Positions 10,141 to 40,857 of a stretch of DNA of 64,000 nt are shown here, one piece after another. The stretch spans positions 186,001 to 250,000 of the forward strand of contig NZ_JAHTBK010000001.1 in NCBI RefSeq assembly GCF_020177575.1, given 5' to 3'. The position numbers and the translations under genes are program-made. Source of the stretch: Hasllibacter sp. MH4015 (GTDB lineage Bacteria > Pseudomonadota > Alphaproteobacteria > Rhodobacterales > Rhodobacteraceae). The notes beneath the pieces are model-generated. The model was not told the DNA's origin and searched no databases. It saw only the letters and a list, made by a program, of their open reading frames with translations. How positions within the stretch are numbered: position 1 is the first letter of the stretch; every line of letters begins with the position of its first letter.

Positions 10141-10175
10141 TCAGGGGGCAGAAGCGGGCGGCACGGGCCTGCCGG

Positions 10176-20158: not shown

Positions 20159-20542
20159 TCAGACCGCGATGATGGTCAGGAACGTGAGGGCGACCGATCC
20201 GATGATCATGCCCCACCCCATACGGTCCGCCGTTTCGACATCAAGGCCGCGCCCGGTGTCCCAGATCAGGTGCCGCAGACCACCAAGAGCGTGGTACCAG
20301 AGGCCCAGAACGCTGAGCGTCATGACCAGGTCGCCGATGAAGGACGTGATCAGCCCGTCGATCGTCGCGAAGTAATCCGGTCCCGAGGCCGCGGCCATCA
20401 TCCACCAGACCACAAGGATGGCGGAAACCAGCATCGCGTTGCCGGTGATGCGCACAAGGATCGAGGTGATGGAGTTCAGCTGCGGTTTGTAGATCGTCAG
20501 ATGAGGCGAAAGCGGACGGTTGCCGCGGTTGACGTCGGCCAT
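20159..20542 (-). CDS. sdhC: Succinate dehydrogenase cytochrome b subunit
   Basis: A 127-residue membrane subunit of complex II. The N-terminal signature RPLSPHLTIY and the haem-ligand block HALGGLRHLIWD identify it. Three membrane helices follow the usual pattern. It is the first gene of the sdh unit; an AG-rich GATAGGGGGACT ribosome site precedes ATG 20542. Two TGTGATCACA palindromes lie 148 and 169 bases upstream and probably form its control region. Confidence 0.95.
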   Translation of the reverse strand: MADVNRGNRPLSPHLTIYKPQLNSITSILVRITGNAMLVSAILVVWWMMAAASGPDYFATIDGLITSFIGDLVMTLSVLGLWYHALGGLRHLIWDTGRGLDVETADRMGWGMIIGSVALTFLTIIAV

Positions 20543-20689: not shown

Positions 20690-20720
20690 TGTGATCACAA
20701 GATTTGCGAGTGTGATCACA
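20690..20720. promoter_or_regulatory. Paired TGTGATCACA palindromes upstream of sdhC
   Basis: Two perfect 10-base palindromes, TGTGATCACA at 20690-20699 and 20711-20720, have centres exactly 21 bases apart, two turns of the helix. The same pair with the same spacing precedes sucC, and a single copy precedes lpdA. They lie in the 206-base gap between mch and sdhC. Likely an operator for a dimer-of-dimers regulator of TCA-cycle genes. Confidence 0.8.
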
Positions 20721-20748
20721 GTTCTGGGCGCGCGGCCAAAACCGGCGA

Positions 20749-21786
20749 TCACCGCGGAATCAGGACCCAGTAGTCGAGGTCGAGCAAGACGTCGGACAGA
20801 TATTTTCCATCCGCGCCGCGCAGTCGCCCCGCAGCGCCCTTCGTGGCCACAAGCCGCAGTCGAAGTGCACCGACATGGGGATCGGTCGTCTCCGCCCGAT
20901 CAAGCACTTCGGACCAGGCATAGACGGTGTCGCCCGCCATTGCGGGGTTGGCGTGGGCGCCCGCGTTGATCGCCGCGATCAGCTGCGCGTTGGCCAGTCC
21001 GTTGAAGCTGAGCGCGCGGGCCATGGAGATGATGTGACCCCCATAGATCAGACGCTTGCCATCGGGTCGGGCGGTGACGTCGAAATGCACCTTGGCCGTG
21101 TTCTGCCACAGGCGGGTGGCCATCATGTGTTCGGGGTCGGTCAGGGTGACGCCATCGACGTGGTCGATGATTTCGCCAATTTCGTAATCGCCCCAGCGGT
21201 GCGCCTCTCCCGCAGCGGCGAAATCGTAGCGGGACCAATCCAGGGTCTCGGGGATATGGAGGGCGTCGGCGGGCACAGACTGGGCAAGGTCTGGAACGGT
21301 TGGCTCCGGCGCGGGGGCGGATGCGTCCCGTTTGCGGACCATGACCCAGCGCACATACTCCAGGACGGGCGTGTCGAAATTCTTGAACCCGCGCGTGCGG
21401 ACCCAGACGATGCCGGTCTTGCCGTTGGAATTCTCTTTCAAGCCGATGATTTCAGAGGTCGACCGGATGGTGTCGCCGGATTCCACACGCTCCAGGAACC
21501 GGCCCTCGGCATAGCCGAGATTGGCGACGGCGTTGAGCGAGATGTCGGGGACCGTCTTGCCGAAGACCGTGTGGAAGGTGATCAGGTCATCCATGATTGG
21601 ATTGCGCAGGGCGCTGCCGCGGGCGGCGAAATCCCACGAGCTTTGCAGGGCGAAACGCGGGCCGTAGAGCGACTGGTACATCGCCACATCCCCGTCGTGC
21701 AGCGTGCGCGGCGTTGCATGGTCGATGACCTGCCCGACGCTGTAATCCTCGAAGAAATAGCCCTGATTTGTCTTTGTGCTGCTCAT
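20749..21786 (-). CDS. mch: Mesaconyl-CoA hydratase (double MaoC domain)
   Basis: Hydrates mesaconyl-C1-CoA to beta-methylmalyl-CoA in the ethylmalonyl-CoA pathway. The 345 residues contain two MaoC-like hot-dog domains (about 5-160 and 190-345); the second has the hydratase block DPEHMMATRLWQNTAKVHFD and IYGGHIISMARAL with a His. It resembles the Rhodobacter Mch subfamily rather than short (about 150-residue) MaoC hydratases. Its ATG overlaps the DUF1737 gene stop by four bases, and it is the last gene of a four-gene set starting with the CitE-like mcl2. Confidence 0.92.
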   Translation of the reverse strand: MSSTKTNQGYFFEDYSVGQVIDHATPRTLHDGDVAMYQSLYGPRFALQSSWDFAARGSALRNPIMDDLITFHTVFGKTVPDISLNAVANLGYAEGRFLERVESGDTIRSTSEIIGLKENSNGKTGIVWVRTRGFKNFDTPVLEYVRWVMVRKRDASAPAPEPTVPDLAQSVPADALHIPETLDWSRYDFAAAGEAHRWGDYEIGEIIDHVDGVTLTDPEHMMATRLWQNTAKVHFDVTARPDGKRLIYGGHIISMARALSFNGLANAQLIAAINAGAHANPAMAGDTVYAWSEVLDRAETTDPHVGALRLRLVATKGAAGRLRGADGKYLSDVLLDLDYWVLIPR

Positions 21787-21986
21787 TGCTGACCCAGTTT
21801 CATATCGGGCGCATAGGGCGCGTCGATGTCCTTGGTGACGGCCTGACCGCAGCGAACGACCCCGCGCGCCGCGTCGAAGGTCATGGTCGGATCGCCATGC
21901 AGCTCCCAGCCGTTCGACAAGGCCTCAGACACCTTATGGCAAAAGGCCGAAGTGTCATCCTCGGTCAGCAAGCGGTAGATTTTCAT
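21783..21986 (-). CDS. DUF1737 small protein
   Basis: A 67-residue soluble protein. The block MKIYRLLTEDD, FCHKVSEALSNGWELHGDP and VRCGQAVTKD matches the DUF1737 pattern as I remember it. Function unknown; the cysteine pair (FCHK, RCGQ) could bind metal. It is coupled to mch by an ATGA overlap and follows the NnrU-like gene by three bases, so it is co-expressed with ethylmalonyl-CoA pathway enzymes. Confidence 0.8.
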   Translation of the reverse strand: MKIYRLLTEDDTSAFCHKVSEALSNGWELHGDPTMTFDAARGVVRCGQAVTKDIDAPYAPDMKLGQQ

Positions 21987-21989
21987 GCT

Positions 21990-22559
21990 CTATCCCCAGG
22001 GGGTTACGCCAAGCCAGTGGTGAATGCCCATGGCCACGAGGAGAACGACAAGGGCGATCACCGCGATGCGGATTTCCGAGGCACGTCCACCCCATTCGGG
22101 CGGGGTCCAGGCCGGTTCCGCCCGGTTGATGATCGCGATTTCCATCAGCGCCCAGATCAACAGCCCGCCGAACAGCACGAACGATGCGAGGTCCCCGTTG
22201 GGGATCAGATGCGCAAAGGCCCAAAGCGAGAAGCCGATCAATTGCGGATGGCGCAGCTTGGTTCCAACCCGGTTGCGCGGGCGGCCCGGTGGCGTCGCAC
22301 CGCTGGCATAGATGTAGAACGCGAGGATCATCAGCAGGTTGTTGATCCCCACCAGCGCGCCAGAGCGGCCCCACCAGACCGGGCCAAACGCGTCGCGGTA
22401 GCCGAAAACCATCAAGACCACGGACAGGACAACCAGGCCCGCGACGATGCCTTTGCCCGGATCGCCGAACCGCGCGCGAGAGGATGGGGCCAGCCGTTTC
22501 CATCCATGGGCGACATACCAAAGCGCAAGGCCCGCGATCAGTAGAATCCAGCCCATCAT
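21990..22559 (-). CDS. NnrU-family membrane protein
   Basis: A 189-residue inner membrane protein with five to six helices. The segment RHPQLIGFSLWAFAHL is the NnrU/isoprenylcysteine methyltransferase-like block, and HHWLGVTP near the end adds another His pair. NnrU was named in Rhodobacter for nitric oxide metabolism, but homologues such as this occur far from denitrification genes and their role is open. The start at 22559 overlaps the mcl2 stop by four bases. It sits inside a carbon-assimilation operon, so the nitrogen-oxide name should not be read as a function. Confidence 0.8.
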   Translation of the reverse strand: MMGWILLIAGLALWYVAHGWKRLAPSSRARFGDPGKGIVAGLVVLSVVLMVFGYRDAFGPVWWGRSGALVGINNLLMILAFYIYASGATPPGRPRNRVGTKLRHPQLIGFSLWAFAHLIPNGDLASFVLFGGLLIWALMEIAIINRAEPAWTPPEWGGRASEIRIAVIALVVLLVAMGIHHWLGVTPWG

Positions 22560-23422
22560 GCGGCCTCCAGCTCGGCGATGGCGCGGGCCTTGGCCAGCGT
22601 GGCGCGCGCGGTGACGATGTGCAGGTTCTCGACGATCTTTCCGTCCACGACCGCGACGCCTTCGCCACGCGCCTCCGCCTCCTCGAAGGCGGCAATCTGG
22701 CGTTGGGCGAGTTCCAACTCGTCGGGGGACGGGGCGAAGATGTCGTTCGCCGTGGCGATCTGGCCGGGATGGATCAGGGTCTTGCCGTCGAACCCGAAAT
22801 CGCGGCCCTGAATGCATTCCGCCGCCAGCCCGTCCACATCGCGAAACGCGTTGTAGACACCGTCGACGCAGATGAGGCCATGGGCGCGGGCCGCCAGAAG
22901 GCTGTGTTGCAGCGCATGGATCATCGCGTCACGGGTCCGCGCACCCAGATCCTTGGCCAGATCGTTGGTACCAAGCACAAAGCCCACCATGCGCGGGGCG
23001 GTCGCGATGGTGGCGGCGTTCAGAATGCCAAGTGGCGTTTCCATCATGGCCCAGATGCGCGTATCGGCCAGCGCCTCATGGGCGTCGAGCATGGCGGCAA
23101 GGCGTTCCACGTCAGCGGCTGAGTTGACCTTCGGCACCAGGATCGCCTGCGGACGGGCGGGCGCGATTGCGGTGATGTCATCGGCGCCCCATTCGGTATC
23201 GAGCGCGTTGATCCGCACGATCTGCCGCCGCGCCCCGAAGCCCCCCTCGGCTAGCGTCGCCACAAGGGTGGCGCGCGCGTCCTCCTTCTCGTTGGGCGCA
23301 ACCGCATCTTCCAGATCGAAGATGATCGCGTCGACCGGCAACGTGCGCGCCTTGTCCATGGCCCGCGTGCGGGATGCCGGAACATAGAGGACGGAACGGT
23401 AGGGAGAGATCGTGTCAGACAT
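22556..23422 (-). CDS. mcl2: CitE-like malyl-CoA thioesterase/lyase, Mcl2 type
   Basis: A 288-residue CitE-superfamily TIM-barrel enzyme. FDLEDAV (35-41) supplies a Mg2+ site, RINALDTEWGADD the CoA pocket, and AMMETPLGILNA the second metal Glu. In Rhodobacter sphaeroides two paralogues exist: Mcl1, a malyl-CoA/beta-methylmalyl-CoA lyase of about 318 residues beginning FGPGSRP-like, and Mcl2, a (3S)-malyl-CoA thioesterase encoded close to mch. The shorter length, the N-terminus SVLYVPASRTRAM and the operon with mch favour Mcl2; this is inference from context. Mcl1 would then lie elsewhere in the genome. First gene of a four-gene operon. Confidence 0.78.
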   Translation of the reverse strand: MSDTISPYRSVLYVPASRTRAMDKARTLPVDAIIFDLEDAVAPNEKEDARATLVATLAEGGFGARRQIVRINALDTEWGADDITAIAPARPQAILVPKVNSAADVERLAAMLDAHEALADTRIWAMMETPLGILNAATIATAPRMVGFVLGTNDLAKDLGARTRDAMIHALQHSLLAARAHGLICVDGVYNAFRDVDGLAAECIQGRDFGFDGKTLIHPGQIATANDIFAPSPDELELAQRQIAAFEEAEARGEGVAVVDGKIVENLHIVTARATLAKARAIAELEAA

Positions 23423-23471
23423 CCGGGGAGCCGATCGTTGAGGACGAATTTCCCCTATGTCGGACCACAAC

Positions 23472-23503
23472 TTCGCTGCAAGCGCAAGTCCGTTGCTGCA
23501 ACG
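23472..23503. promoter_or_regulatory. Palindromes upstream of mcl2, candidate operator
   Basis: A perfect palindrome CGTTGCTGCAACG (23491-23503) is preceded by an imperfect one, TTCGCTGCAAGCGCAA (23472-23487). They lie 50-80 bases before the mcl2 start in the 276-base gap shared with the divergent exported protein. TTGC/GCAA-type sites are plausible targets for short-chain acyl-CoA-responsive regulators such as RamB/PccR, but I cannot assign the protein. Confidence 0.4.
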
Positions 23504-23698
23504 CAGCGCGCCGCGCAAGAAAATTGCGCCGGAAAATTGGGCTCGTTCACGGGCGGTTAACCAGACCATGCCAGTGTGGGGACAGATGCCAGAACGGCAC
23601 TCATCGGCAAGGAGGAAGGTTTTGCAACCCCGGCGCCTCCGCTGATCCGAATGACATCGCTTGAGTGGCCAGCGCCCCAGAAAAAGGGACATGACCTT

Positions 23699-24010
23699 AT
23701 GACGATGTTCAAATCCGCCCTGATGGCCGCGGCGTTCGCGTTGCTTTCGCTGCCGCAGGCCGCGTCGGCTCAATCCGGAATGCTGTGCGCCCAACGCGAT
23801 CTCGTGCTTGCGCAACTAACCGACCGCTATGGCGAGCAACGCCATGGCATGGGCCTTGCTCCGAATAACCGCATCGTGGAGATCTACGTGTCCGAGGAAA
23901 CCGGAAGCTGGACGATCATCCTGACCAACGCAGACGGCACCACATGCCTCATGGCCGCGGGCCAGCATTTCGAGGCGGTGGCCCCTGTCCCGGCGGGGGA
24001 CGACCTGTAG
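23699..24010 (+). CDS. Small exported protein of unknown function
   Basis: A 103-residue protein with a clear Sec signal peptide (residues 1-24, MTMFKSALMAAAFALLSLP ending ASAQS). The mature part has two cysteines (MLCAQRD, TTCLMAAG) likely to form a disulfide, and the segment YGEQRHGMGLAPNNRIVEIY. The order C - VLAQLTDRYGE - NNRIVEIYVSEETGSWTI - C - MAAGQ looks like a small, widely shared alphaproteobacterial periplasmic protein, but I cannot name its function. ATG 23699 is chosen for the signal peptide; mdh follows after 120 bases. Confidence 0.7.
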   Translation: MTMFKSALMAAAFALLSLPQAASAQSGMLCAQRDLVLAQLTDRYGEQRHGMGLAPNNRIVEIYVSEETGSWTIILTNADGTTCLMAAGQHFEAVAPVPAGDDL

Positions 24011-24127
24011 GACACGCCAACGCGCAACCCTTGGTTGATACGATCCGCCGCGCTTGCGAAGGCTTGCACCACGCGCGGCCTGCCGCTACCCCTCCGCCCG
24101 ACCGTAACACCGGACCGAGGACCTTGA

Positions 24128-25093
<966 letters not shown>

Positions 25094-25117
25094 GCCCACG
25101 GCACGACGCACAGATCA

Positions 25118-25144
25118 GGGCCGGGCCGAAATGCCCGGCCCTTT
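25118..25144 (+). terminator. Rho-independent terminator of mdh
   Basis: Nine-base perfect arms GGGCCGGGC (25118-25126) and GCCCGGCCC (25133-25141) with loop CGAAAT, followed by TTT. It also stands just past the end of the convergent glycosyltransferase. Confidence 0.85.
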
Positions 25145-25148
25145 GTCG

Positions 25149-26162
25149 TCAGAGCACGCCGTTCTGCCGCGCCACATCCACCCACGCGTCGATGTTCTTC
25201 CGCAAGGCCGCGTCGAACGCTCCGGGGCCGAGGTCGACGGATCGGCCGGGAAACGCGGTCTCGACAATTGGGCCGAGGTCAAATTGATCGCGCTGAATAT
25301 ATCCGTCGTCTTCCAGAACGGCGATCTCGGCCTCGGAATACCCGTTCACCCGGTCGAATAGCGCGCGAAGGGCCGCGGGATCGTGAAGGCAGCCCGCGAT
25401 TTCACGCCATTGGGCGATGCGGAAGGGGGGCAATTGCTCCAACCGTTCGGGCGTATTGGCGGCCTGTCGGATGAACTTCCCGGCCCAGTGCAGGGGCGTC
25501 ATCCCGTCAAAATGCACCAGCTCGATCTGGTCGGCGGGGTAGTGGGGCGGCACGACACGGTCCTTGATATGGCCATGCCGCGGCACGTGGATACCGATAT
25601 TCATCCCGATCCGCGTGCGCACAAAGGGTTTGCCCGCGGCATGGCCCGTGAAGCCGAACGGGGCGAGGGCGGATGTCCGTAACGGAGTATCATCGCGGCC
25701 CTGGTAATGGACCTTGAAGACCCCGTCGAAGATCGTGCGCTGCGGCTGACCCCGGACCAATGCGCGTTCAAGGTTGAAGACCTTCGTCCACGTCGCCCAT
25801 TCCGGCACATCGGCCAGGGCGGCCTGCACATCCGATCCGGGACGCAAGTATTCATCCGCGTCGCAATGGAGCAGGAAATCGAGCTTGCTGACCGATTGCG
25901 CATGGGTCGCGTTGATGGTCTGGCGGTTGTTGTGGCGGCGTGGGCGGCGCGGGGCGACGGCGCGCCAATAATGCCGGTCACAGCGGGTCACGTGGACGGG
26001 CGGCAACCAATCCAGAAGCTCCCCCACCGGGTCGCGGGGATTGTCGAGGTAGATGTGGATTTCATCCGCGCCAAGGCTCAGGTGGTGGGCGACAAAGGCC
26101 ATGACCAATTGCGGGGGCTCCGCCACGGTGGCGACGATCCCCCATCGAAATGGCTTGGACAT
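25149..26162 (-). CDS. Glycosyltransferase family 2-like protein (DUF-type)
   Basis: A 337-residue predicted glycosyltransferase of the Glyco_tranf_2_4/GT92-like group. An N-terminal sugar-nucleotide fold (VATVAEPPQLVMAFVAHHLSLG) is followed by the metal-binding acidic motif HCDADEYLRPG near residue 98-108, the family's DxD-like site, and HFDGMTPLHWAGKF in the second half. There is no signal or membrane helix, so it should act on the cytoplasmic side. It lies between mdh and sucC on the opposite strand. The sugar and the acceptor cannot be inferred; an exopolysaccharide role is one possibility. Confidence 0.75.
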   Translation of the reverse strand: MSKPFRWGIVATVAEPPQLVMAFVAHHLSLGADEIHIYLDNPRDPVGELLDWLPPVHVTRCDRHYWRAVAPRRPRRHNNRQTINATHAQSVSKLDFLLHCDADEYLRPGSDVQAALADVPEWATWTKVFNLERALVRGQPQRTIFDGVFKVHYQGRDDTPLRTSALAPFGFTGHAAGKPFVRTRIGMNIGIHVPRHGHIKDRVVPPHYPADQIELVHFDGMTPLHWAGKFIRQAANTPERLEQLPPFRIAQWREIAGCLHDPAALRALFDRVNGYSEAEIAVLEDDGYIQRDQFDLGPIVETAFPGRSVDLGPGAFDAALRKNIDAWVDVARQNGVL

Positions 26163-26281
26163 GTCCGATGGCTCCGGGGTTGGGACGCGTGCCGACCACG
26201 CTGCGCCGGATCGCGGATCGGGGCAAGTCAGATCACATGCGGCGCGGTGAGTCGCGGCGGCGCGGCAGAGGGCGATATTTT

Positions 26282-26312
26282 TGTGATCACACGTTGGAAA
26301 AGTGTGATCACA
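26282..26312. promoter_or_regulatory. Paired TGTGATCACA palindromes upstream of sucC
   Basis: Perfect copies at 26282-26291 and 26303-26312, centres 21 bases apart exactly as at sdhC, 111-141 bases before the sucC start. The region is AT-rich against its neighbours. A weaker copy (TCAGATCACA, 8 of 10) lies at 26228-26237. The pair also lies 120 bases from the divergent glycosyltransferase start and could act on both. Confidence 0.8.
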
Positions 26313-26422
26313 AATGTCGGTTTTTCGCCCAAAACCCTGTGCCTGCGGCAGAATGCCGTTTCAATGCAAGCGGCGGTTGTGTCACGTCCAAGTGAACGTG
26401 ACCTAAAGAACGGACCAGTTCC

Positions 26423-27616
26423 ATGAACATTCATGAGTATCAGGCGAAAGCTCTCCTCCGGCAATATGGCGCACCGGTTTCCGACGGACGGGTGGTGCTG
26501 AAGGCGGAAGACGCCAAGACCGCCGCGGGCGAAATGGACGGGCCGCTTTGGGTCGTGAAGGCGCAGATCCACGCAGGGGGCCGCGGCAAGGGCAAGTTCA
26601 AGGAAGCCGATGCCGGGGACGCGGGCGGCGTGCGCCTGGCGAAATCGGTTGAGGAAGCGGCGGAAGAGGCCAAGAAGATGCTTGGCCGCACGTTGGTGAC
26701 GCACCAGACGGGTCCGGCCGGCAAGCAGGTCAACCGTATCTATATCGAGGATGGCTCGGGCATTGAGACGGAGATGTACCTGGCGCTTCTGGTGGATCGA
26801 CAGACCAGCCGCATTTCCTTCGTCTGCTCTACCGAGGGCGGCATGGATATCGAGGAAGTGGCGGCGGAGACGCCCGAAAAGATCCTGTCGTTCAGCGTCG
26901 ATCCGGCGACGGGGTATCAGCCCTACCACGGGCGGCGCGTGGCCTTCTCGCTCGGCCTTGAGGGCCAGCAGGTCAAGCAATGCGTCAAGCTGATGGGCCA
27001 GTTGTTCGATGCCTTCGTGGAGAAGGACATGGAGATGCTGGAGATCAATCCGCTGATCGTGACCGATGGCGGTGATCTGAAAGTGCTGGACGCGAAGGTC
27101 GGGTTCGACGGAAACGCCGTCTATCGCCACGCCGACATCGCCGCGCTGCGCGATGAGACGGAAGAGGACCCCAAGGAACTGGCCGCGTCCAAGTTCGACC
27201 TCAACTACATCGCGCTCGACGGGGAAATCGGCTGCATGGTCAACGGCGCGGGCCTCGCCATGGCAACGATGGATATCATCAAGCTTTACGGCGCGGAGCC
27301 TGCCAACTTCCTTGATGTGGGCGGCGGCGCCACGAAGGAAAAGGTGACGGAGGCGTTCAAGATCATCACCTCCGATCCGCAGGTCAAAGGCATCCTCGTG
27401 AACATCTTCGGCGGTATCATGCGCTGCGATATCATCGCCGAGGGCGTGGTGGCCGCGGTCAAGGAAGTGGGTCTTGAGGTTCCGCTGGTCGTGCGGCTTG
27501 AAGGCACGAATGTCGAAAAGGGCAAGGAAATCATCAACTCCTCCGGCCTGAACGTCATCGCCGCAGATGACCTGAAAGACGGGGCGGAGAAGATCGTAAA
27601 GGCCGTTAAAGGGTAG
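26423..27616 (+). CDS. sucC: Succinyl-CoA synthetase beta subunit
   Basis: The 397-residue beta subunit grasps the nucleotide and catalyses ADP/GDP phosphorylation coupled to succinyl-CoA hydrolysis. The N-terminal ATP-grasp fold begins [16 protein letters not shown], the nucleotide lysine block [14 protein letters not shown] lies near 48-61, LEINPLIVT near 205, and the C-terminal succinate-CoA domain has [16 protein letters not shown] and [15 protein letters not shown] near 330. Length is like E. coli SucC (388). It is separated from sucD by five accessory genes, which is not the usual direct pairing. A double palindrome upstream probably controls it. Confidence 0.97.
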
Positions 27617-27620
27617 GCCG

Positions 27621-28082
27621 ATGCGCCCCGCCGAATTCCCCGAACGCAATACGGCACGCCGCCGGGCCATGCATATGGTCCGGGGTGCGCTATGCGCCGT
27701 GGCGATGGGCGGCACCGCGCTGGCCCAGGCTCCGTCCGTCGGATCAGCGGAGGCGAACCCGGCAATCCTTGCCCACCTGTTCGTCAATGTCTGCTTCACC
27801 AGCCAATCCCTGACCGAGGCGCAGGATCGTCTTCTGGCAAATAGGATGGTTCCGAACCCTGAGACGGGAACGTATTTCCATCCGGTCTTCGACATGTCCA
27901 TGAACCCGGCGGGCGACATCTGCTCCATCGTGTTTTCGGGCACGGACGTGGAGGAGGACATCGCGACCTTCCGGGAAACGCTGACGTCGATCGTCGGCAT
28001 CCGCACCGGAGATGTGGAACTGGTTCCGGTTCCCCAAACCGCCGAGGTGCTGCTGCGCGGTGGCGTGGAGGTGCAGTGGTGA
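27621..28082 (+). CDS. Exported protein of unknown function between sucC and sucD
   Basis: A 153-residue protein starting four bases after sucC. Its N-terminus has twin basic residues ([13 protein letters not shown]) and a hydrophobic stretch ending TALAQA, a signal peptide of Sec or possibly Tat type. The mature part has cysteines in NVCFTSQS and GDICSIVF, probably a disulfide. It resembles in plan the exported protein at 29547 (a signal, a Cys near AxxxFVNVCF or AHCF, a second Cys, about 130-150 mature residues), so the two may be distant relatives. It overlaps the next gene by four bases. Confidence 0.6.
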
Positions 28083-28891
28083 ACGCCCCCGACCTCCGGA
28101 TCGACACGACCCGTCCCTGCCCGAGCTGCGGATCGGAGGCGCGCGCGGAGATGCCGCTTTTCCACCGTGACGAATGGCGAATGGTGAAATGTAGGGATTG
28201 CGACCTGGTCTATCTCCTCAACCCGCCGGGATACGAGGCGTTGGTGGAGGATTTCGCGTGGGAAAAGACCTCTGCCGATGAGCACCTGGCCCGACTTGAA
28301 GCCCGCCCAATCCTGCAACGGGCGGACCTTGCGACGCGCTGGCGCCACAAGATCGGACGCAAGCCCGATGCGGTGCGGTACGCGGAATGGTTCGGCGGCG
28401 GCAACCTTCTGAACGTCGGCTGCGCCGAGGCAAGCGTGCAATATCCCGGCTTCACGCAGTACGGGATCGAGATTTCGGCGGAGCTGGCCGAGGCGGCGAA
28501 CCGCAACCTGGCCGAGCAGGGCGGCTATTGCGTCCACGGCCCGGGTGCGGAGGCGATCCGCGAATTCCCCGATGCGATGTTCGACGGTGTGATCCTGCGC
28601 TCCTACCTGGAGCATGAGGAGCATCCCAGACCGGTTCTGGAGCATGTCGCGCGTGTCCTGAAACCCGGAGGGCGCGCTTACGTCCGGGTGCCGAATTTCA
28701 ACGCGCTGGGGCGGAAGATCTTCAAGACCAACTGGGTCGGCCTGCGCTATCCCGATCACGTGCAGTATTTCACGCTGGACACGCTCACCGATTTGGCACG
28801 ACGCACCGGGTTCACGGTGAAGGTGCTGAACCCGGTCCGCCTGCCGTTGGATGACAATATCAACGTGCTGTTCGAGAGGGCCGCGGCATGA
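28079..28891 (+). CDS. SAM-dependent methyltransferase with N-terminal zinc ribbon
   Basis: A 270-residue protein beginning with a zinc ribbon (CPSCG near 15-19, CRDCD near 42-46), followed by a class I methyltransferase domain: SAM-binding LLNVGCAEA near 108-116, acidic residues in YGIEISAE, and RSYLEHEEHPRP as motif IV region. It fits the group annotated as class I SAM-dependent methyltransferases linked to polysaccharide or O-antigen clusters. GTG 28079 overlaps the previous stop (GTGA). It pairs with the next methyltransferase-like gene. Substrate unknown. Confidence 0.75.
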   Translation: MNAPDLRIDTTRPCPSCGSEARAEMPLFHRDEWRMVKCRDCDLVYLLNPPGYEALVEDFAWEKTSADEHLARLEARPILQRADLATRWRHKIGRKPDAVRYAEWFGGGNLLNVGCAEASVQYPGFTQYGIEISAELAEAANRNLAEQGGYCVHGPGAEAIREFPDAMFDGVILRSYLEHEEHPRPVLEHVARVLKPGGRAYVRVPNFNALGRKIFKTNWVGLRYPDHVQYFTLDTLTDLARRTGFTVKVLNPVRLPLDDNINVLFERAAA

Positions 28892-29544
28892 GGCGGAAAC
28901 TGCAAGATGTATTCGAGACGAAGGTTTGGCCTTCCAGCGCGAAGGGCACACGTTCCGGGCCGGGATCAACGCTCAAGGCCACGGAGCGGGTGCGTGCGGC
29001 GCTGCCGGATGTCCTGAAACGCTACAAGGTGAAGACGTTCTTCGACGCGCCCTGCGGCGACTTCTACTGGATGCGCGAGGTCGATCTCGGCAAGCGGACC
29101 TATATCGGCGGCGACATCTCGTCTGAGATCATCGCCGACGTGACCGAGCAATATGCCAGCGACAAGGTCAGCTTCGTGCATATCGACATCACCAGCGATC
29201 CGCTGCCCAAGGCCGACATGATGATGTGCCGTGATTGCCTGTTCCACCTGAAGGACCGCTTCAAGTGGGGCTTCTTGCGTAATTTCGCGGAGGGGCCGAT
29301 CCCGTATCTGATGATGACGATGCACCATTTCGATCAAAACAATCACCTGAGCGACACGGGGAACTTCCAGCCCTTCTCGCCCATGGCGGCGCCGTTCAAC
29401 TTCCCCGCGCCGATCGAGATGGTCCACGAGACGGTCGATGAATTGCCCGACGATGTCGCCAATGCGCCCGATGCGCGGCAGATCAAGTCACTGGGCATCT
29501 GGAAGCGCAAGGATGTGAAAGCGGTTGTGGAGGCGCAGGGCTGA
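28888..29544 (+). CDS. Class I SAM-dependent methyltransferase-like protein
   Basis: A 218-residue predicted methyltransferase. The SAM-site is FFDAPCGDFYWM (51-62; in class I enzymes the loop is usually GxGxG, here APCGD), followed by YIGGDIS with an acidic residue, and MCRDCLFHLKD, the region that would hold the substrate side. The PCGDFYWM-type block is that of a family of 200-230-residue proteins annotated as methyltransferases in lipopolysaccharide or surface polysaccharide loci. It overlaps the preceding methyltransferase by four bases. Biochemical role unknown. Confidence 0.7.
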   Translation: MRRKLQDVFETKVWPSSAKGTRSGPGSTLKATERVRAALPDVLKRYKVKTFFDAPCGDFYWMREVDLGKRTYIGGDISSEIIADVTEQYASDKVSFVHIDITSDPLPKADMMMCRDCLFHLKDRFKWGFLRNFAEGPIPYLMMTMHHFDQNNHLSDTGNFQPFSPMAAPFNFPAPIEMVHETVDELPDDVANAPDARQIKSLGIWKRKDVKAVVEAQG

Positions 29545-29546
29545 CG

Positions 29547-30086
29547 ATGCGAAGCGTCCGGCGGATCTGGCGAAGGGGAGAGCGTGCAGCATGGCTGTGC
29601 GCCGCCATGTTGGTCATGTCCGTCGCGGTCCAAGCCGACGAGGATGCCCTGCCGACCCGCGCGGCGGAGGCGTTTGCCGCCCATTGCTTCAGCCCGTTCA
29701 TGACCGCCGAGCGCGCGGAAGAGGTGCTTGCCTCCACCGGCGCGCGGGTGGATTTCTACGATCTCGACCCGTTCTCCAACGCGGAGCCGTCGCCGGTGAC
29801 GGGGCGTCCCGCCACGACGGGTACGGACCGCCGTTGCGAAGTGGCTTTTGACGGCGATCATGCGGAACTCGCCGCTAGCGCCGCCATCGCGGGGCTGGAG
29901 ATGGAGGGGATCGACACAGAAGCGCCGATCCCCGACCGGTATCAACCCACCGAAGGCACGGCACTCCTGGGCGCACGGCAATTGAACCCGCGCCGCATCG
30001 CCGTGGTCCATGTGGGCACGCGCCCCGGCCCGAACGGGGTTGAGACATTCATGTTCGTGGAGCGGCTGATGCCGATCGCGCCATGA
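29547..30086 (+). CDS. Exported protein of unknown function
   Basis: A 179-residue protein with an Arg-rich N-terminus (RSVRRIWRRGERAAW) and a hydrophobic segment ending VQADEDA, likely a signal peptide. The mature part has one Cys near the start (AAHCFSPF) and another in DRRCEVAF. It begins two bases after the methyltransferase and overlaps the next gene by four. No family recognised. Its plan is like the protein at 27621, as noted there. Confidence 0.55.
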   Translation: MRSVRRIWRRGERAAWLCAAMLVMSVAVQADEDALPTRAAEAFAAHCFSPFMTAERAEEVLASTGARVDFYDLDPFSNAEPSPVTGRPATTGTDRRCEVAFDGDHAELAASAAIAGLEMEGIDTEAPIPDRYQPTEGTALLGARQLNPRRIAVVHVGTRPGPNGVETFMFVERLMPIAP

Positions 30087-30628
30087 GAGATGTGAATCCG
30101 AATGAAGCCATGACGTTCAACCGCCGTGCCCTGCCATGGTATTATGTTCTGGTCGCGCTGTTTGTCGCCGCATTGGGCATCACGATCTTATTGATCGGGC
30201 CCGAAGAGGGTGAAATCGGGATTATCCTTGTCGCCCTTTTCTGCATCGCGCTGGGCGTTTTTGGCCTCTACGCCGTCGTCAAGACGCGCCGCCACGCGGG
30301 TGAGCCGATGGTGACGCTGTCGCCCGACGGCCTGGTGTTCGAGGCGCAGGGCGGCGGCCCCGTGGCGTGGTCCGAATTGACCGGGCTGGCTTGGGTGAAC
30401 GTCAAGGGGCAGACCGGGCTGGTCGTGCAGATGACCGACGCCGCCCACAGCCGTGTTTCCCCGTCGCGCGCGATGCAAACCGCGGCAAAACTCGACCAAG
30501 CGCTTTTGGGCTCCAAGGGTCTGACCGTCTGGCACAACCAGATCGAAGGCTCCCTAGAAGAATTGGCCGGTCTGATCGCCGTTTATTCCAACGCCCATGG
30601 CGGCCCCGATCTGAGCGTGGCCCCATGA
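30083..30628 (+). CDS. Small two-helix membrane protein with a PH-like domain
   Basis: A 181-residue protein with two N-terminal membrane helices (about 19-39 and 46-64) and a soluble C-terminal part of about 110 residues. The segment EPMVTLSPDGLVFEAQGGGPVAW followed by ELTGLAWVNVKGQTGLVVQM resembles the STM3941-like/PH-type domain of small inner membrane proteins; I hold this at low confidence. It overlaps the previous gene by four bases and ends 36 bases before sucD. Function unknown. Confidence 0.6.
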   Translation: MRDVNPNEAMTFNRRALPWYYVLVALFVAALGITILLIGPEEGEIGIILVALFCIALGVFGLYAVVKTRRHAGEPMVTLSPDGLVFEAQGGGPVAWSELTGLAWVNVKGQTGLVVQMTDAAHSRVSPSRAMQTAAKLDQALLGSKGLTVWHNQIEGSLEELAGLIAVYSNAHGGPDLSVAP

Positions 30629-30664
30629 CGAACCCACTTGTCCCAATGACCGAAGGAGGCCCCT

Positions 30665-31546
30665 ATGGCCGTACTCGTTGACGAAAACACCAAGGTGATC
30701 TGCCAAGGCTTCACCGGCTCCCAGGGCACGTTCCATTCGGAGCAGGCGATCGAGTACGGCACCAAGATGGTGGGCGGCGTGACGCCGGGCAAAGGCGGGA
30801 TGACCCATCTGGACCTGCCGGTCTTCAACTCCGTGCATGAGGCCAAGGCCGTGACGGAGGCCAATGCCTCAGTCATCTACGTGCCGCCGCCCTTCGCCGC
30901 GGATTCGATCCTGGAGGCGATTGATGCGGAGATGGAGCTGATCTGCTGCATCACCGAAGGCATCCCTGTGCTGGACATGATGAAGGTGAAGCGGGCTTTG
31001 GAGGGCTCCAAGTCGATCCTGATCGGGCCGAACTGCCCTGGTATCATCACGCCCGACGCCTGCAAGATCGGCATCATGCCGGGCCATATCCACCGGCGCG
31101 GATCGGTGGGCGTTGTCTCGCGCTCCGGCACCCTGACCTATGAGGCGGTCAAGCAGACCTCCGATGTGGGTCTGGGGCAATCCACCTGCGTAGGCATCGG
31201 CGGCGACCCGATCAAGGGAACCGAACATATCGACGTGCTGGAATGGTTCCTGGCCGATGACGAGACGCATTCGATCATCATGATCGGTGAGATTGGCGGC
31301 TCCGCCGAGGAGGAAGCCGCGCAATTCCTGATCGACGAGGCCAAAAAGGGCCGGAAAAAGCCGGTCGCCGGGTTCATCGCGGGGCGCACTGCACCGCCGG
31401 GCCGTCGCATGGGCCATGCCGGTGCCATTGTGGCGGGCGGCAAAGGCGGTGCCGATGACAAGATCGAGGCAATGCGCGCCGCCGGTATCGTGGTGGCCGA
31501 CAGCCCCGCGACGCTGGGTGAGGCGGTTCTGGAAGCCATCGGGTGA
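30665..31546 (+). CDS. sucD: Succinyl-CoA synthetase alpha subunit
   Basis: The 293-residue alpha subunit binds CoA and carries the phospho-histidine. The N-terminal CoA fold includes [20 protein letters not shown], and the C-terminal flavodoxin-like domain carries GPNCPGI and the active His251 in [11 protein letters not shown] follows AAGGAGG at a good distance. Five genes lie between it and sucC, so the two subunits must be matched across about 3 kb of transcript. Confidence 0.97.
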
Positions 31547-31562
31547 GCCGGTCGGGGATGTG

Positions 31563-31781
31563 ATGCAAACTCACGTGTCAAATGTGCCGTTGGACCTGCG
31601 CCGCCCTTTGCGGCTGCGCGGGCCGATGTCACGCCGGGCCTTTACGAGTCCGGCTAGTTTGACAGGCTTGCGCGCACGGCTCCCACTTCACATCGCTGCG
31701 GTTCTCACGGGTATGGTGGCCGTGGCGTCGCTGTTCAATCGCCCATTCGCGTCGCCCCCTGGCAAGGACGCGGTGGCATGA
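31563..31781 (+). CDS. Doubtful small ORF between sucD and the DUF805 pair
   Basis: A 72-residue open frame whose stop overlaps the DUF805 start by four bases (ATGA), which is what coupled genes look like here. It has a basic middle and a hydrophobic stretch (LHIAAVLTGMVAVASLF). No ribosome site or family signature was seen, so chance is at least as likely. The rest of the 231-base gap after sucD shows no RNA or repeat. Confidence 0.25.
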   Translation: MQTHVSNVPLDLRRPLRLRGPMSRRAFTSPASLTGLRARLPLHIAAVLTGMVAVASLFNRPFASPPGKDAVA

Positions 31782-32431
31782 CGTTCGGGGAGGCCATATC
31801 CCACAATATCCGGAACATGTTCCGGTTCGCCGGGCGTGACCCGCGCTCGTCCTTCTGGTGGTTCGTGCTGTTCGTGTTCCTGGGCTCCATCGTGGCCAAC
31901 ATGATCGACGGCATCTTCTGGCTGTTCCGGGCGGAGTCCGTGCTGGCACGGCTGGAGCAGCCAGAGGAATTCTTCGCGATGTTCGTGGGCAACCCGTGGA
32001 TTTATTTCCTGTTCGCGCCAGTTTCGTTGATCTGGATGCTCGTGACGCTGGTGCCGCTTTTTTCCTGCGGCATCAGGCGCAGGCACGATTGCGACAAATC
32101 CGGAACGGGGTTCGTTCTGGCGTGCCTCGTCGCTCTGGCCGCGAGTGTGGTGGCGCTCGTCTACATGTTCCAGTTCTTCTCGATCTTCGCCGACTATATC
32201 CTCGCCTCCGCCCAGAACCCGGGCGCTTCCGGCTCTCCGTTCGATGACCCGGAGACGTTCGCGATGGTCACGCGGTTCATGGGGATTGTGTCCATCCTGT
32301 CGCTGCTGCAATTCGCAGCCGGTATCGTGATCCTGATCATGATGGCCACCAAGGGCACGGCTGGCCCGAACCGGTATGGGGACGACCCGCTGGCCGCTTT
32401 ACCCCCCGATATTCCAGTGCAGAGTATTTGA
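31778..32431 (+). CDS. DUF805 inner membrane protein (first of a pair)
   Basis: A 217-residue membrane protein. The N-terminus (FRFAGRDPRSSFWWFVLF) and the middle block SCGIRRRHDCDKSG match the DUF805 pattern, with the Arg-His-Asp block between helices. About four membrane helices are seen. DUF805 function is unknown. It lies directly before a second DUF805 gene, with only a base between stop and start; the two share the DPRS-xxWW-VLF core and are an old tandem duplication. Possibly part of the sucD-sucA transcript. Confidence 0.85.
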   Translation: MTFGEAISHNIRNMFRFAGRDPRSSFWWFVLFVFLGSIVANMIDGIFWLFRAESVLARLEQPEEFFAMFVGNPWIYFLFAPVSLIWMLVTLVPLFSCGIRRRHDCDKSGTGFVLACLVALAASVVALVYMFQFFSIFADYILASAQNPGASGSPFDDPETFAMVTRFMGIVSILSLLQFAAGIVILIMMATKGTAGPNRYGDDPLAALPPDIPVQSI

Positions 32432-32432
32432 G

Positions 32433-33023
32433 ATGACATTCACAGAATCCATTCGACACAACATCGTCCATTGCACCAATTTCAGCGACCGCGATCCGCG
32501 CTCCGCCTATTGGTGGTACGTGCTGTTTGTCTCTCTCGGCGCGCTCGTGGCCATGGTCCTCGATTTCATCATTTTCTGGCCCGCCGCCGGCGAAGGGCGG
32601 ATCGCCGCGTTCCTGTCGGAAAACTTCCAGTCGATCACCGATTTCTACATCAACGTCATGCCGATCACGACGTTCTGGTATCTCCTGAACTACCTGCCGG
32701 TCCTTGCCTGTGGCGTTCGACGGATGCGGGACCAGAACAAGCCCGCCTGGTGGTTCATCGTGACAATCATCTTCGTCACGATCATGTCCGTGGTCGTATT
32801 CAACGTCACCGGCCCGCAATCGGCGGAGCTGATGATGGTGGCCTTCAACCCCAATGCGACCATGTCCGAGCTGAACCGCGTTCTGGCCGATGCGGAGCAG
32901 TTGAACCGCACCTCCACGATCCTGTCGGGCATCCAGACCTTGCCGAGCCTGCTCATCATCATCTGGATGGCCACCCGCGGCACCGTCGGACCCAACCCCC
33001 ATGGGGAGGATCCGTTGGGATGA
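32433..33023 (+). CDS. DUF805 inner membrane protein (second of a pair)
   Basis: A 196-residue paralogue of the preceding protein, with FSDRDPRSAYWWYVLF, ACGVRRMRDQNKPAWW and C-terminal WMATRGTVGPNPHGEDPLG, the last shared in form with WxATxGTxGPNxxGxDPL of the first copy. ATG 32433 is chosen as it restores the shared MTFxESIxHNI start. Sequence identity between the copies is modest, so each may bind a different partner. About 100 bases separate it from sucA. Confidence 0.85.
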   Translation: MTFTESIRHNIVHCTNFSDRDPRSAYWWYVLFVSLGALVAMVLDFIIFWPAAGEGRIAAFLSENFQSITDFYINVMPITTFWYLLNYLPVLACGVRRMRDQNKPAWWFIVTIIFVTIMSVVVFNVTGPQSAELMMVAFNPNATMSELNRVLADAEQLNRTSTILSGIQTLPSLLIIIWMATRGTVGPNPHGEDPLG

Positions 33024-33125
33024 CATTCGACGAACCCACCCCCATCTGTTGCGACACCCACGCGCAACGTCCGGGCGGCGCGGCGCAGGCCCCCATTCTC
33101 CAGGTAAAATTCAGGAGCGATCTGA

Positions 33126-36086: not shown

Positions 36087-36092
36087 TTGAAG

Positions 36093-37646
36093 ATGTCTGT
36101 AGAAATTCGTGTGCCCACCCTGGGCGAATCCGTGACCGAGGCGACCGTCGCGACCTGGTTCAAGAAGCCGGGCGACACCGTCGCGGTCGACGAGATGTTG
36201 TGCGAGTTGGAGACCGACAAGGTCACGGTGGAAGTGCCTTCCCCCGCCGCAGGCACGTTGGGAGAGATCGTGGCCGCCGAGGGTGAAACCGTCGGTGTCG
36301 ATGCCCTGCTGGCGACGTTGAGCGAGGGGGATGCAGGATCGACCGCGGCCCCCAAGGGCAAGGAAACTGCCGAAGATGACGGTGCCGCCTCCGCCGCCGC
36401 GCGCACCGCGTCCAAGGATGACGGCGGGGACGCGGTTGACGTGATGGTGCCGACCCTTGGCGAGTCCGTGACGGAAGCCACCGTATCCACATGGTTCAAG
36501 AAGGTGGGCGACAGCGTCGCGCAGGACGAGATGCTGTGTGAGCTGGAAACGGACAAGGTCTCGGTCGAGGTGCCATCGCCTGCCGCGGGTGTCCTGTCGG
36601 AGATCCTGGCTGAGGAAGGCACCACCGTGGAGGCCAGCGCGAAACTTGCCGTGATCGGCGGAGCATCGGGTGCGCCCGCAGTCGCGCCGTCCTCCACCGG
36701 CGATGGGGTCACTGGGGGCGATCAGTACACGGCCCCTCCCGCCGGCAGGGACGCGGCCGATGTCGAAAACGCGCCATCCGCCCAGAAGATGATGGCAGAC
36801 AAAGGGATCAGTGCCGATCAGGTCCAGGGCACGGGCCGCGATGGCCGCATCATGAAGGAAGACGTGATGAAGGCCGCGTCCCAGCCCGCATCTGCGCCCG
36901 CCCCCGCCGCACAGGCACCCCGCGCGCCGGTGGCCGCCGATGACGAAGCGCGGGAGGAGCGGGTGAAGATGACCCGCCTGCGCCAAACCATCGCGCGCCG
37001 CCTGAAGGACGCCCAGAACACCGCCGCGATCCTGACCACGTATAACGAGGTCGACATGGGCGCGGTGATGGAATTGCGCAACGAATACAAGGATCTGTTC
37101 CTGAAGAAGCACGGCGTGAAGCTTGGCTTCATGTCGTTCTTCACCAAGGCCTGTGTCCACGCGCTGCGCGAGGTGCCCGAGGTGAACGCGGAAATCGACG
37201 GCACGGATATCGTCTATAAGAACTTCGTCCATATGGGCATCGCCGCAGGCACGCCCCAAGGCCTTGTGGTGCCCGTGATCCGCGACGCCGACGCGATGAG
37301 CTTTGCCGATATCGAGAAAGCGATCGCCGAGAAGGGCTCCAAGGCGCGCGATGGCAAGCTGTCCATGGCGGAGATGCAGGGCGGCACCTTCACGATCTCC
37401 AACGGCGGGGTCTATGGCTCGCTCATGTCCTCGCCCATCCTCAACCCGCCGCAATCCGGTATCTTGGGGATGCACAAGATCCAGGACCGCCCGATGGTGG
37501 TGAACGGAGAGATCGTGATCCGCCCGATGATGTATCTGGCTCTGTCCTATGACCACCGGATCGTGGACGGCAAAGGGGCGGTGACGTTCCTTGTCCGCGT
37601 GAAAGAGGCGTTGGAGGATCCGCGCCGGTTGCTGATGGACCTGTGA
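36093..37646 (+). CDS. odhB: Dihydrolipoyl succinyltransferase (E2) with two lipoyl domains
   Basis: The E2 core of the 2-oxoglutarate dehydrogenase complex, transferring the succinyl group to CoA. The 517 residues carry two tandem lipoyl domains, with lipoyl lysines K43 and K155 in ELETDKV, joined by an Ala-rich linker; most characterised E2o proteins, including E. coli SucB, have one. A peripheral subunit-binding domain follows (about 226-260, [11 protein letters not shown]), then the acyltransferase core ending with the catalytic SYDHRIVDG (His488, Asp492). Start 36093 (MSVEIRV) is preferred to a TTG two codons earlier. Translation couples to the next gene through GTGA. Confidence 0.96.
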
Positions 37647-38209
37647 GCCGGAATTCGGCGCGCGATGCAGCCCTTGCGGCCAACATCGCGCGCCGGCGCG
37701 CCTTCGCTTTGCCCGGATATGCCACATTGGCGGAATGCGGGTTCGACGGGGCGTATGTCAGTCCGATCCAGATGAGTTCCGGGTCAGCCGATGGCCCGCT
37801 TCTCATGAGCAAGGATTGGCTGGATGCGCCCACGGCCCGCGCGGCCCCTGCGCCGCTTCGCGACATCGGCTATCTGCCGTCCATGCCGTTCAACAAGGTT
37901 CTGGATGCGGCCTTGAATATGGCGGGGCTTCGACGGGGTGACATCTATATCGCGCCGGTCTTCTGCCTATTGCCGCCTGTCCGCTCCCACGCGCTGCCCC
38001 TGGGCGATGCTCTCGCGTCCTTCGATGCCGTGACACGCCATGAAATCCTCGGGCGTCGGCCCATTGCGCTGGGTCGCGATGCCGCCGCCGTCCTGTCGCG
38101 GCGCGGGGTCGATCATATCGCAATCCCGCATCCGTCGGCGCGCGGCAGGGCCTTCGCGGACCGTGCGGCCCTCATCGCCGATGCGCTGCGCCGTGTCGCT
38201 AGGTCCTGA
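37643..38209 (+). CDS. Uncharacterised protein, possibly uracil-DNA-glycosylase-like
   Basis: A 188-residue protein starting with GTG inside the odhB stop. The order [13 protein letters not shown] - [15 protein letters not shown] - [14 protein letters not shown] - IPHPSARG recalls the family-4/5 uracil-DNA glycosylase fold (a central sheet with helix, the HPSARG block, and the LG-Ala helix). The N-terminal motif expected for iron-sulfur UDGs (GEAPG) is not seen, so it may be a degenerate, non-catalytic relative. I am unsure. It is coupled to odhB, which is an odd partner for a repair enzyme. Confidence 0.5.
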
Positions 38210-38305
38210 CACACACGCTCACATCCCCGGCACCTCCCGCGCTCGTGTTTTCCCAGTGATCGCCGCCGCGTGCCACCTTGCTCGCAGGACAAGGAGTAAC
38301 GGGAC

Positions 38306-38836
38306 ATGACACATCACCCCAACCGCCGGGCGTTCCTCGGCACCGCTGCGGCGACCGCGCTCGCCGCTCCCATGGCGCAAGCACAGACGCTCGCATCGGG
38401 CAATGACGCTTTCACCTACGAAGTCACGCGCACCGACGCGGAATGGCGCGCGATGCTCAGCGAGGATGAATACCGCATCATGCGGGAGTTCGGGACGGAG
38501 CCGCGCTTTTCCTCCGACTTCTGGGATACGGAAGACGCGGGCCATTACCATTGCAAGGGCTGCGATCTGACGATCTACGACAGCGACCAGAAGACCCTGC
38601 GCCTGATCGGGTGGGTCTTCTACTACCACGCGCGGCCCGACAGCGTGCTTCTGGGTATCGACGAATGGCCCGCCCAGATGTCGGAGGCCGAGGAGATGGG
38701 CGAACCCCGGCAGGTCACGGAGGTACATTGCCGCCGCTGCGGAAGCCATCTGGGCCATCTTTTGCAGGTCCAGGGCGACATGCTGCATTGCATCAACGGC
38801 GCCAGCCTGACCTTCGCGGCGGACGAGGCCGGTTGA
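38306..38836 (+). CDS. Exported methionine-R-sulfoxide reductase (MsrB) with Tat signal
   Basis: Reduces free or protein methionine-R-sulfoxide. The 176 residues begin NRRAFLGTAAATALAAPMAQA, a twin-arginine signal, so the enzyme should work folded in the periplasm. The SelR domain has zinc pairs CKGC (near 87-90) and CRRC (near 140-143), HLGHLLQ, and the catalytic Cys in LHCINGASL. The N-terminal half has a longer insert than standard MsrB (about 140 residues). AAGGAG precedes the start. Its neighbour is a MAPEG protein. Confidence 0.8.
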   Translation: MTHHPNRRAFLGTAAATALAAPMAQAQTLASGNDAFTYEVTRTDAEWRAMLSEDEYRIMREFGTEPRFSSDFWDTEDAGHYHCKGCDLTIYDSDQKTLRLIGWVFYYHARPDSVLLGIDEWPAQMSEAEEMGEPRQVTEVHCRRCGSHLGHLLQVQGDMLHCINGASLTFAADEAG

Positions 38837-38893
38837 CCGGTTGAGGCCCGCCCTTCGCCCGGCCATAGTCGCCGTAGCAAAGGGAGCCCTGCG

Positions 38894-39310
38894 ATGACGC
38901 CTGAACTGACCGCCCTGGCCCTGGCCGGATTGCTGCAAGTCGGGCAATTCGTTTTGATGGCCGTGCCCGCCAACCTCGAGATCGGGACGGGCAAGACGCT
39001 GTCGCCCCGGGACCGGGACCGGTTGGGTGGCGACATGCAAGACCTGCTCAGCCCCCGCACCGCGCGGCTCTACCGGGCGATGAACAACCATTTCGAAGGG
39101 TTGATCCTGTTCACCATCGCGGTGGTTGTGGTCACGCTTGGCGATGGCTCAACACCGGTGACGGCGGCCTGTGCCTGGCTCTACCTGGCCGCGCGCGTGC
39201 TCTACGTCCCGGCCTACGCCTTTGGCTGGACACCTTGGCGCAGTTATATCTGGTTTGTCGGATTTGCTGCCACGACCGTGATGCTGGTCGCCGCCCTGAT
39301 CCCCGCCTGA
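38894..39310 (+). CDS. MAPEG-family membrane protein
   Basis: A 138-residue membrane protein with four helices. The MAPEG pattern is visible as RxxxNxxEGLxxF (YRAMNNHFEGLILFTIAV near 64-80) and the following AWLYLAARVLYVPAYAFGW. Eukaryotic members conjugate glutathione or act in eicosanoid metabolism; bacterial ones are mostly uncharacterised. The ribosome site AAGGGAGCCCTGCG fits ATG 38894. It lies between msrB and lpdA; any oxidative-stress link with msrB is inference. Confidence 0.85.
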   Translation: MTPELTALALAGLLQVGQFVLMAVPANLEIGTGKTLSPRDRDRLGGDMQDLLSPRTARLYRAMNNHFEGLILFTIAVVVVTLGDGSTPVTAACAWLYLAARVLYVPAYAFGWTPWRSYIWFVGFAATTVMLVAALIPA

Positions 39311-39327
39311 CCGCGCCGCACCCGCTT

Positions 39328-39337
39328 TGTGATCACA
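39328..39337. promoter_or_regulatory. Single TGTGATCACA palindrome upstream of lpdA
   Basis: A third promoter with the palindrome, here as one copy 132 bases before the lpdA start. No partner at 21 bases was found. Its position just before the E3 gene of the same enzyme complex supports a shared regulon. Confidence 0.7.
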
Positions 39338-39468: not shown

Positions 39469-40857
39469 ATGTCCAGCTATGACGTTATCGTAATCGGCTC
39501 CGGCCCCGGCGGCTATGTCTGCGCCATCCGCTGCGCGCAACTGGGGCTGAAGACGGCCTGTGTGGAGGGGCGCGAAACGCTCGGCGGCACTTGCCTGAAC
39601 ATCGGCTGCATCCCGTCCAAGGCACTGCTCCACTCCTCGCACATGTTGCACGAGGCGGAGCATAACTTCGCCAAGATGGGCTTGAAGGGCAAATCACCCT
39701 CCGTCGATTGGAAGCAGATGCTGGCCTACAAGGACGACGTGATCGGCCAGAACACCAAGGGCATCGAATTTCTTTTCAAGAAGAACAAGATCGACTGGCT
39801 GAAGGGCTGGGGCTCCATCCCCGAAGCGGGCAAGGTCAAGGTGGGTGAAGAGGTTCACGAGGCCAAGCACATCATCATCGCGTCGGGCTCCGAGCCGTCG
39901 AGCCTGCCGGGGGTGGAAATCGACGAGAAGGTTGTCGTGACCTCCGAAGGCGCGCTGAGCCTGCCGAAGATCCCCAAGAAGATGGTGGTGATCGGCGCGG
40001 GCGTGATCGGGTTGGAGCTTGGGTCGGTCTACGCGCGCCTCGGTGCGGAGGTTCAGGTGATCGAATTCCTCGACCACATCACTCCGGGCATGGATGCGGA
40101 GATTTCCAAGGTCTTCCAGCGCACCCTCAAGAAGCAGGGGCTGGACTTCACCATGGGCGCCGCGGTGCAGAAGGTGGACGCCACGAAGACCAAGGCCAAA
40201 GTCACATACAAGCTGCGCAAAGACGACAGCGAACACGTGATCGACGCCGATGTCGTGTTGGTCGCCACGGGCCGCAAACCCTATACCGACGGGCTGGGGC
40301 TCGACGCACTTGGCGTAAAGATGTCCGACCGCGGCCAGATCGAGGTCGACACCCAATACAAGACCAACGTGCCCGGCATCCTTGCCATCGGCGATGCCAT
40401 TGACGGCCCGATGCTGGCCCACAAGGCCGAGGATGAGGGCATGGCAGCGGCCGAAGTCGTGGCGGGCAAACATGGCCACGTCAATTACGGCGTCATCCCC
40501 GGCGTGATCTACACCCATCCCGAGGTCTCCAATGTCGGCGCGACGGAGGAGCAGTTGAAGGAAGCGGGCCGCGCCTACAAGGTCGGCAAGTTCTCCTTCA
40601 TGGGCAACGGACGGGCCAAGGCCAACTTCGCGGGCGACGGGTTCGTGAAAATCCTTGCCGACGCCGAAACCGACCGCATCTTGGGCGCCCATATGATCGG
40701 CCCGATGGTGGGCGATCTGATCCATGAGGTCTGCGTGGCGATGGAATTCGGTGCGTCGGCCCAGGACCTCGCCATGACCTGCCACGCCCACCCCACCTAT
40801 TCCGAAGCCGTGCGCGAAGCGGCGCTGGCCTGCGGCGACGGGGCGATCCACGCCTGA
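39469..40857 (+). CDS. lpdA: Dihydrolipoyl dehydrogenase (E3)
   Basis: The flavoprotein reoxidises the lipoyl groups of 2-oxo acid dehydrogenase complexes with NAD+. The 462 residues have the FAD motif [13 protein letters not shown] (9-21), the redox pair Cys42/Cys47 in [16 protein letters not shown], the NAD motif [13 protein letters not shown] near 178, and the C-terminal dimer-interface [10 protein letters not shown]. Start 39469 is chosen because GGAGG lies four bases before ATG; an in-frame upstream ATG lacks one. As E3 of the odh complex it belongs with sucA-odhB, 1.8 kb upstream. A strong bidirectional stem-loop follows. Confidence 0.97.

Follow-up and report, generated by a model that had tools for sequence, protein, structure and literature searches.

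A 64,000-nucleotide stretch of the genome of Hasllibacter sp. MH4015 (contig NZ_JAHTBK010000001.1, positions 186,001 to 250,000; hereafter the window) was analysed for a short palindrome, TGTGATCACA, which is located upstream of the genes sdhC, sucC and lpdA. The copies of this palindrome are very probably operators of an AkgR-type activator of the GntR/FCD family, which is predicted from the sequence to be encoded at 42143-42796 in the same window and to control genes of the tricarboxylic acid (TCA) cycle. The main result is thus that the window carries the ortholog of a regulon which is already known, that of AkgR.

As shown in Table 1, the window holds five exact copies of TGTGATCACA, which form one pair before sdhC, one pair before sucC and a lone site before lpdA. 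The start-to-start distance is 21 base pairs (bp) in both pairs, and the palindrome nearer to the gene lies 147 bp from sdhC, 110 bp from sucC and 131 bp from lpdA. Given the base composition of the window (GC content 0.64), chance alone would yield 0.0225 exact copies per window, 1.3 per genome and, at one fixed spacing, 4.6e-7 pairs per genome. When up to two mismatches were allowed, the window contained 13 sites against a mean of 18.85 in shuffled sequence, without enrichment, and the signal is therefore carried by the exact sites. A preliminary description of this DNA had reported the five sites, their 21-bp spacing as beyond chance, the related form CGTGATCACG at 11009 as part of a coding sequence, and sdhC, sucC and lpdA as the downstream genes. 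All five sites are exact at those positions, the spacing departs from chance by the expectation given above and recurs in relatives as described below, CGTGATCACG lies inside an open frame of 834 amino acids (9300-11804), and the identities of the three genes are upheld by Pfam.

In the whole genome of 3.71 megabases (Mb), TGTGATCACA occurs exactly 11 times and its reversed control does not occur. The six copies outside the window are contained in five long open frames, 439 to 797 amino acids in length. At 1e-15, Pfam assigned one of these frames to a poly-A-polymerase head domain and another to a thiamine pyrophosphate enzyme, and gave no match for the remaining three, whose coding status was judged by frame length. 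The eight-base core GTGATCAC is present 62 times in the genome, which indicates that the outer T and A matter. The preliminary description had taken commonness of the motif at random loci as a point that would speak against a regulon. The six extra single copies, all in long frames, give this objection slight weight, and it does not extend to exact pairs, of which the genome has two, both in the window.

Conservation of the pair was surveyed in 120 genomes of the family, one per genus, where a pair was defined as two copies of TGTGATCACA with 0 to 30 bases between them. Such a close pair was found in 74 of the 120 genomes, and the reversed control gave none in all 120. When both copies had to be exact and separated by 11 bases, 29 of 61 genomes held a pair, namely 29 of 37 within the same family and 0 of 24 outside it. 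Among the matches listed from both pair surveys, 96 pair places were read, and 94 of them lie upstream of sucC or sdhC, as the preliminary description would have it for relatives. The spacing was 21 bp at 88 of the 96 places, 20 bp at six, 22 bp at one and 24 bp at one; the two off-target pairs, with spacings of 22 and 24 bp, look like chance occurrences.

Among these places, the two of genome G008, whose sequences agree over at least 108 bases surrounding the pair and differ beyond them, were counted once on the assumption that they represent one place on two contigs. The resulting sets comprise 72 sucC and 21 sdhC loci, including those of the present genome. The distance from the pair to the start of the downstream gene ranges from 95 to 165 bp for sucC, where 56 of the 72 pairs fall between 104 and 112 bp, and from 115 to 163 bp for sdhC. 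In the sucC set, a T stands outside the first copy in 60 of 72 loci and an A outside the second in 66, the inner edges are C/G in 65 and 64 of 72, and the GC content of the spacer core is 0.21. In the sdhC set, the outer preference is weak, with T in 10 and A in 12 of the 21 loci; each of the two inner edges is C/G in 17 of the 21, and the spacer-core GC content is 0.33. The spacer letters vary among genera while the spacing and the promoter stay the same. The difference between the outward and inward flanks suggests that the two copies form a single composite operator.

A relative of the window's GntR/FCD regulator was found at E ≤ 1e-30 in 107 of the 120 family genomes. Of these 107 genomes, 74 hold the pair, and it is missing from all 13 in which no relative was found (Fisher p = 1.2e-6). 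When orthologs were defined more strictly (best E ≤ 1e-80), the pair was present in 72 of 103 genomes with an ortholog and in 2 of the 17 others (p = 7.7e-6). In a scan of named genomes, the best 80 of 499 confirmed stretches (L096-L175) were read; their orthologs belong to Roseicyclus, Ruegeria, Leisingera, Tritonibacter and other Rhodobacteraceae, and the nearest (94-95% identity) are labelled Roseicyclus. The gene of a YgjP-like metallopeptidase, which directly precedes the regulator in the window, is found no more than 200 bp upstream of the regulator gene in 68 of the 80 relatives and at another place of the fetched stretch in 10.

The same relatives carry the palindrome at the regulator gene itself. 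An exact TGTGATCACA stands before the regulator start in 54 of the 80 relatives, at 11 to 29 bp in 52 of those, and a palindrome with one mismatch stands 12 to 21 bp before it in nine more. With at most one mismatch, this self-site is thus present in 63 of 80 relatives, within 61 bp of the start. A site at a regulator's own start is the usual mark of autoregulation, and its position here suggests that the regulator may be autoregulated in the relatives that have it. The self-site ties the regulator to the motif independently of the co-occurrence. The strict spacing, the conserved place, the co-occurrence with the GntR protein and the self-site together support the proposal of the preliminary description, a regulon whose operator holds two sites and whose regulator is of the GntR type.

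The same description had left the regulator without a name. We take RSP_0981 of Rhodobacter sphaeroides to be the protein named AkgR, which Imam et al. reportedly characterized in 2015 as a direct activator of TCA-cycle genes. The regulator is a known one, and its ortholog is encoded in the window. In the excerpts of the two papers that treat it, RSP_0981 is predicted to regulate sucCD, sdh and sucAB in R. sphaeroides (PMC4344238), and GTGATCAC is stated to be among the sites of AkgR in this species (PMC6365646). Three motif strings of RSP_0489 targets printed in the excerpt of PMC4344238 were found in genome G087 inside the printed peak coordinates, and G087 was for this reason taken as R. 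sphaeroides 2.4.1. The window regulator is 75% identical to a GntR gene located past sdhB in G087, which has a YgjP-like neighbour as in the window. This gene is located at 2740107, no other GntR gene lies in the chromosome stretch from about 2.23 to 2.79 Mb, and its place fits that expected for RSP_0981 after the sdh genes RSP_0974-6.

The AkgR regulon is like that of the window in the regulator family, in the GTGATCAC core and in the targets sucCD, sdh and sucAB. The pairs also stand at the same two promoters: G087 has a pair before sdhC, which is spaced by 21 bp and was read separately from the 96 places, and a pair before sucC in which one copy has one mismatch. The two differ in that the window has its own lpdA site and its regulator gene lies beyond lpdA instead of past sdhB. 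Another relative of the system is PS417_07240, a proposed GntR regulator of a deoxyribonate cluster in Pseudomonas simiae, which is 32% identical to AkgR and shares the palindrome GTGATCAC, but belongs to another pathway with one site named per promoter in the excerpt (PMC6365646). Neither the rigid pairing over two helical turns nor the single sites at the regulator gene and at lpdA were found in the AkgR passages of the excerpts of PMC4344238 and PMC6365646. In the excerpts of PMC11323563, PMC5507952, PMC4419725 and PMC7471390, AkgR appears as a reference-list mention only, and the literature matches to TGTGATCACA, judged by title, included no title on a bacterial regulator.

Several observations weigh against the assignment of the sites to the window's AkgR-type protein. 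The genera are related, and the Fisher p-values accordingly overstate independence. Two genomes, G031 and G069, hold the pair with a relative that is only 38% or 49% identical, and 31 of the 103 ortholog-bearing genomes lack the exact pair, so the pairs may be degenerate there or the regulon may vary. The self-site is absent within 100 bp in 17 of the 80 relatives, a group that includes L096-L102, the Roseicyclus-like loci closest to the window. At the regulator gene of the window itself, a scan of 1000 bp with up to two mismatches allowed gave no such site. The tag RSP_0981 was assigned to the G087 gene by gene order and not from annotation. Consensus promoter scans gave no Escherichia coli-type promoter beside the sdhC or sucC pair; further conserved columns lie 3' of the pairs, at about +46/+47 for sucC and at about +57 to +59 and +71 to +74 for sdhC, and yielded no firm promoter call.

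Among the other explanations, the binding of the palindromes by a different GntR-family protein of this genome survives best, and is still unlikely. Members of this family bind similar short palindromes, the genome has 14 matches to the GntR helix-turn-helix (HTH) domain over the Pfam cut-off, and a second GntR subfamily of about 40% identity occurs in many relatives. However, the genome lacks this subfamily, with one match at E ≤ 1e-30, and yet has two pairs, and the self-site in 63 of 80 relatives sits at orthologs of the window regulator. One control paralog was found at E ≤ 1e-60 in one of the 120 genomes, its own, a result that excludes little beyond the paralog itself.

Sites of the CRP/FNR type are a far less probable source of the motif, despite the shared half-site: TGTGA and TCACA are the arms of CRP sites. 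CRP and FNR sites have a spacer between their arms; in all five window sites the arms are fused, and this candidate was rejected on that ground. According to the excerpt of PMC4344238, no counterparts of CRP are predicted for R. sphaeroides.

Equally improbable is CceR, a central-carbon regulator of the LacI family with sdh as a predicted target, which presumably corresponds to RSP_1663. In the excerpt of PMC4344238, RSP_1663 is predicted to control sdh, with the predicted motif [AGT]GTT-N6-8-AAC[ACT]. On inspection, the GTT-N6-8-AAC inverted repeat is absent from the palindrome, and CceR was rejected. Least probable of all is a functionless chance repeat. Single exact copies do arise by chance, as the six genome copies within long frames indicate, but pairs of fixed spacing recur at the same promoters across genera despite the varying spacer letters, a conservation that refutes this reading.

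The preferred assignment, to the AkgR-type regulator, includes lpdA as a third target, which had also been proposed in the preliminary description. The site is exact in the window; as a conserved feature it is local, since only 6 of the 30 relatives with a usable lpdA have an exact copy in the 400 bp before this gene. The carriers are L096 and L107 (Roseicyclus), L108 (Alterinioella), L109 (Nioella), and L104 and L110 (Rhodobacterales/Rhodobacteraceae), and several other Roseicyclus-labelled loci have no lpdA site. L107 has a further copy, with one mismatch, at a distance of 21 bp from the first, so that lpdA can also have a near-pair. The lpdA site and the self-site are both exact in L107, and L108 has the lpdA site with a self-site of one mismatch; the two sites are therefore not exclusive.

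The genes sucD, sucA and sucB all lie 3' of sucC on the same strand, the pairs standing before sucC and sdhC, and a single operon is a candidate arrangement only. Open frames at 27621-30628 separate sucC from sucD (30665-31546), and others at 31778-33023 separate sucD from sucA (33126). Some of these frames were matched directly after sucC in relatives of the same genus, and the suc gene run looks as if it has been broken up by extra genes in this genus.

Two further features adjoin the pairs. A glycosyltransferase-like gene (25149-26162; Pfam Glyco_tranf_2_4) diverges from sucC; it begins 119 bp away from the sucC pair and might use the same operator. Between the other pair and sdhC, the block CTGCGGCGTTAAGCCCCA (sdhC strand) at 20661-20679 recurs in relatives of the same genus and is possibly the site of another regulator or a leader element.

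Table 1. Palindromes, target genes and regulator locus in the window (positions are those of the window).
Feature	Position	Strand	Basis
sdhC, first gene of sdhCDAB, target	20159..20542	-	Pfam Sdh_cyt
AkgR-type palindrome, sdhC pair, copy nearer sdhC	20690..20699	.	exact match
AkgR-type palindrome, sdhC pair, second copy, centre 21 bp off	20711..20720	.	exact match
AkgR-type palindrome, sucC pair, first copy	26282..26291	.	exact match
AkgR-type palindrome, sucC pair, second copy, 110 bp 5' of sucC	26303..26312	.	exact match
sucC, target	26423..27616	+	Pfam ATP-grasp_2 + Ligase_CoA
Lone AkgR-type palindrome, 131 bp 5' of lpdA	39328..39337	.	exact match
lpdA (E3), local target	39469..40857	+	Pfam Pyr_redox_2, Pyr_redox_dim
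GntR/FCD regulator, 217 amino acids, proposed binder of all five sites	42143..42796	-	Pfam GntR + FCD
YgjP-like metallopeptidase, directly upstream of regulator	42800..43525	-	neighbour in relatives

In the proposed mechanism, AkgR would act as a FadR-type transcription activator, with a GntR HTH domain and an FCD ligand domain, that reads the palindromes, presumably with one dimer per TGTGATCACA. At sdhCDAB and sucC, two dimers would be placed two helical turns apart on the same face of the DNA, where they most likely cooperate and activate the promoters of sdhCDAB and of the suc genes. In most of the relatives read, the single copy before the regulator start would probably give self-repression. 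The window's regulator gene lacks a self-site, and lpdA has a single site.

A more tentative proposal, which we consider possible with the balance somewhat against it, is that copy number and place set the sign of control, such that two dimers fixed at two helical turns make the pair a composite operator that activates sdhC and sucC, and the single self-site represses the regulator gene, and that this wiring drifts between lineages. The pair would then be defined by A/T outer flanks, C/G inner edges and a variable, A/T-rich spacer, and some lineages would have lost the self-site, some would have gained an lpdA site or near-pair, and some would have both.

The results point to the regulator that would read this motif in this bacterium, and they show the AkgR operator as an element of two sites with rigid spacing that much of the family has conserved. 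They may thereby offer a handle on a FadR-type activator acting as a pair of dimers and on the wiring of central carbon metabolism in these bacteria.

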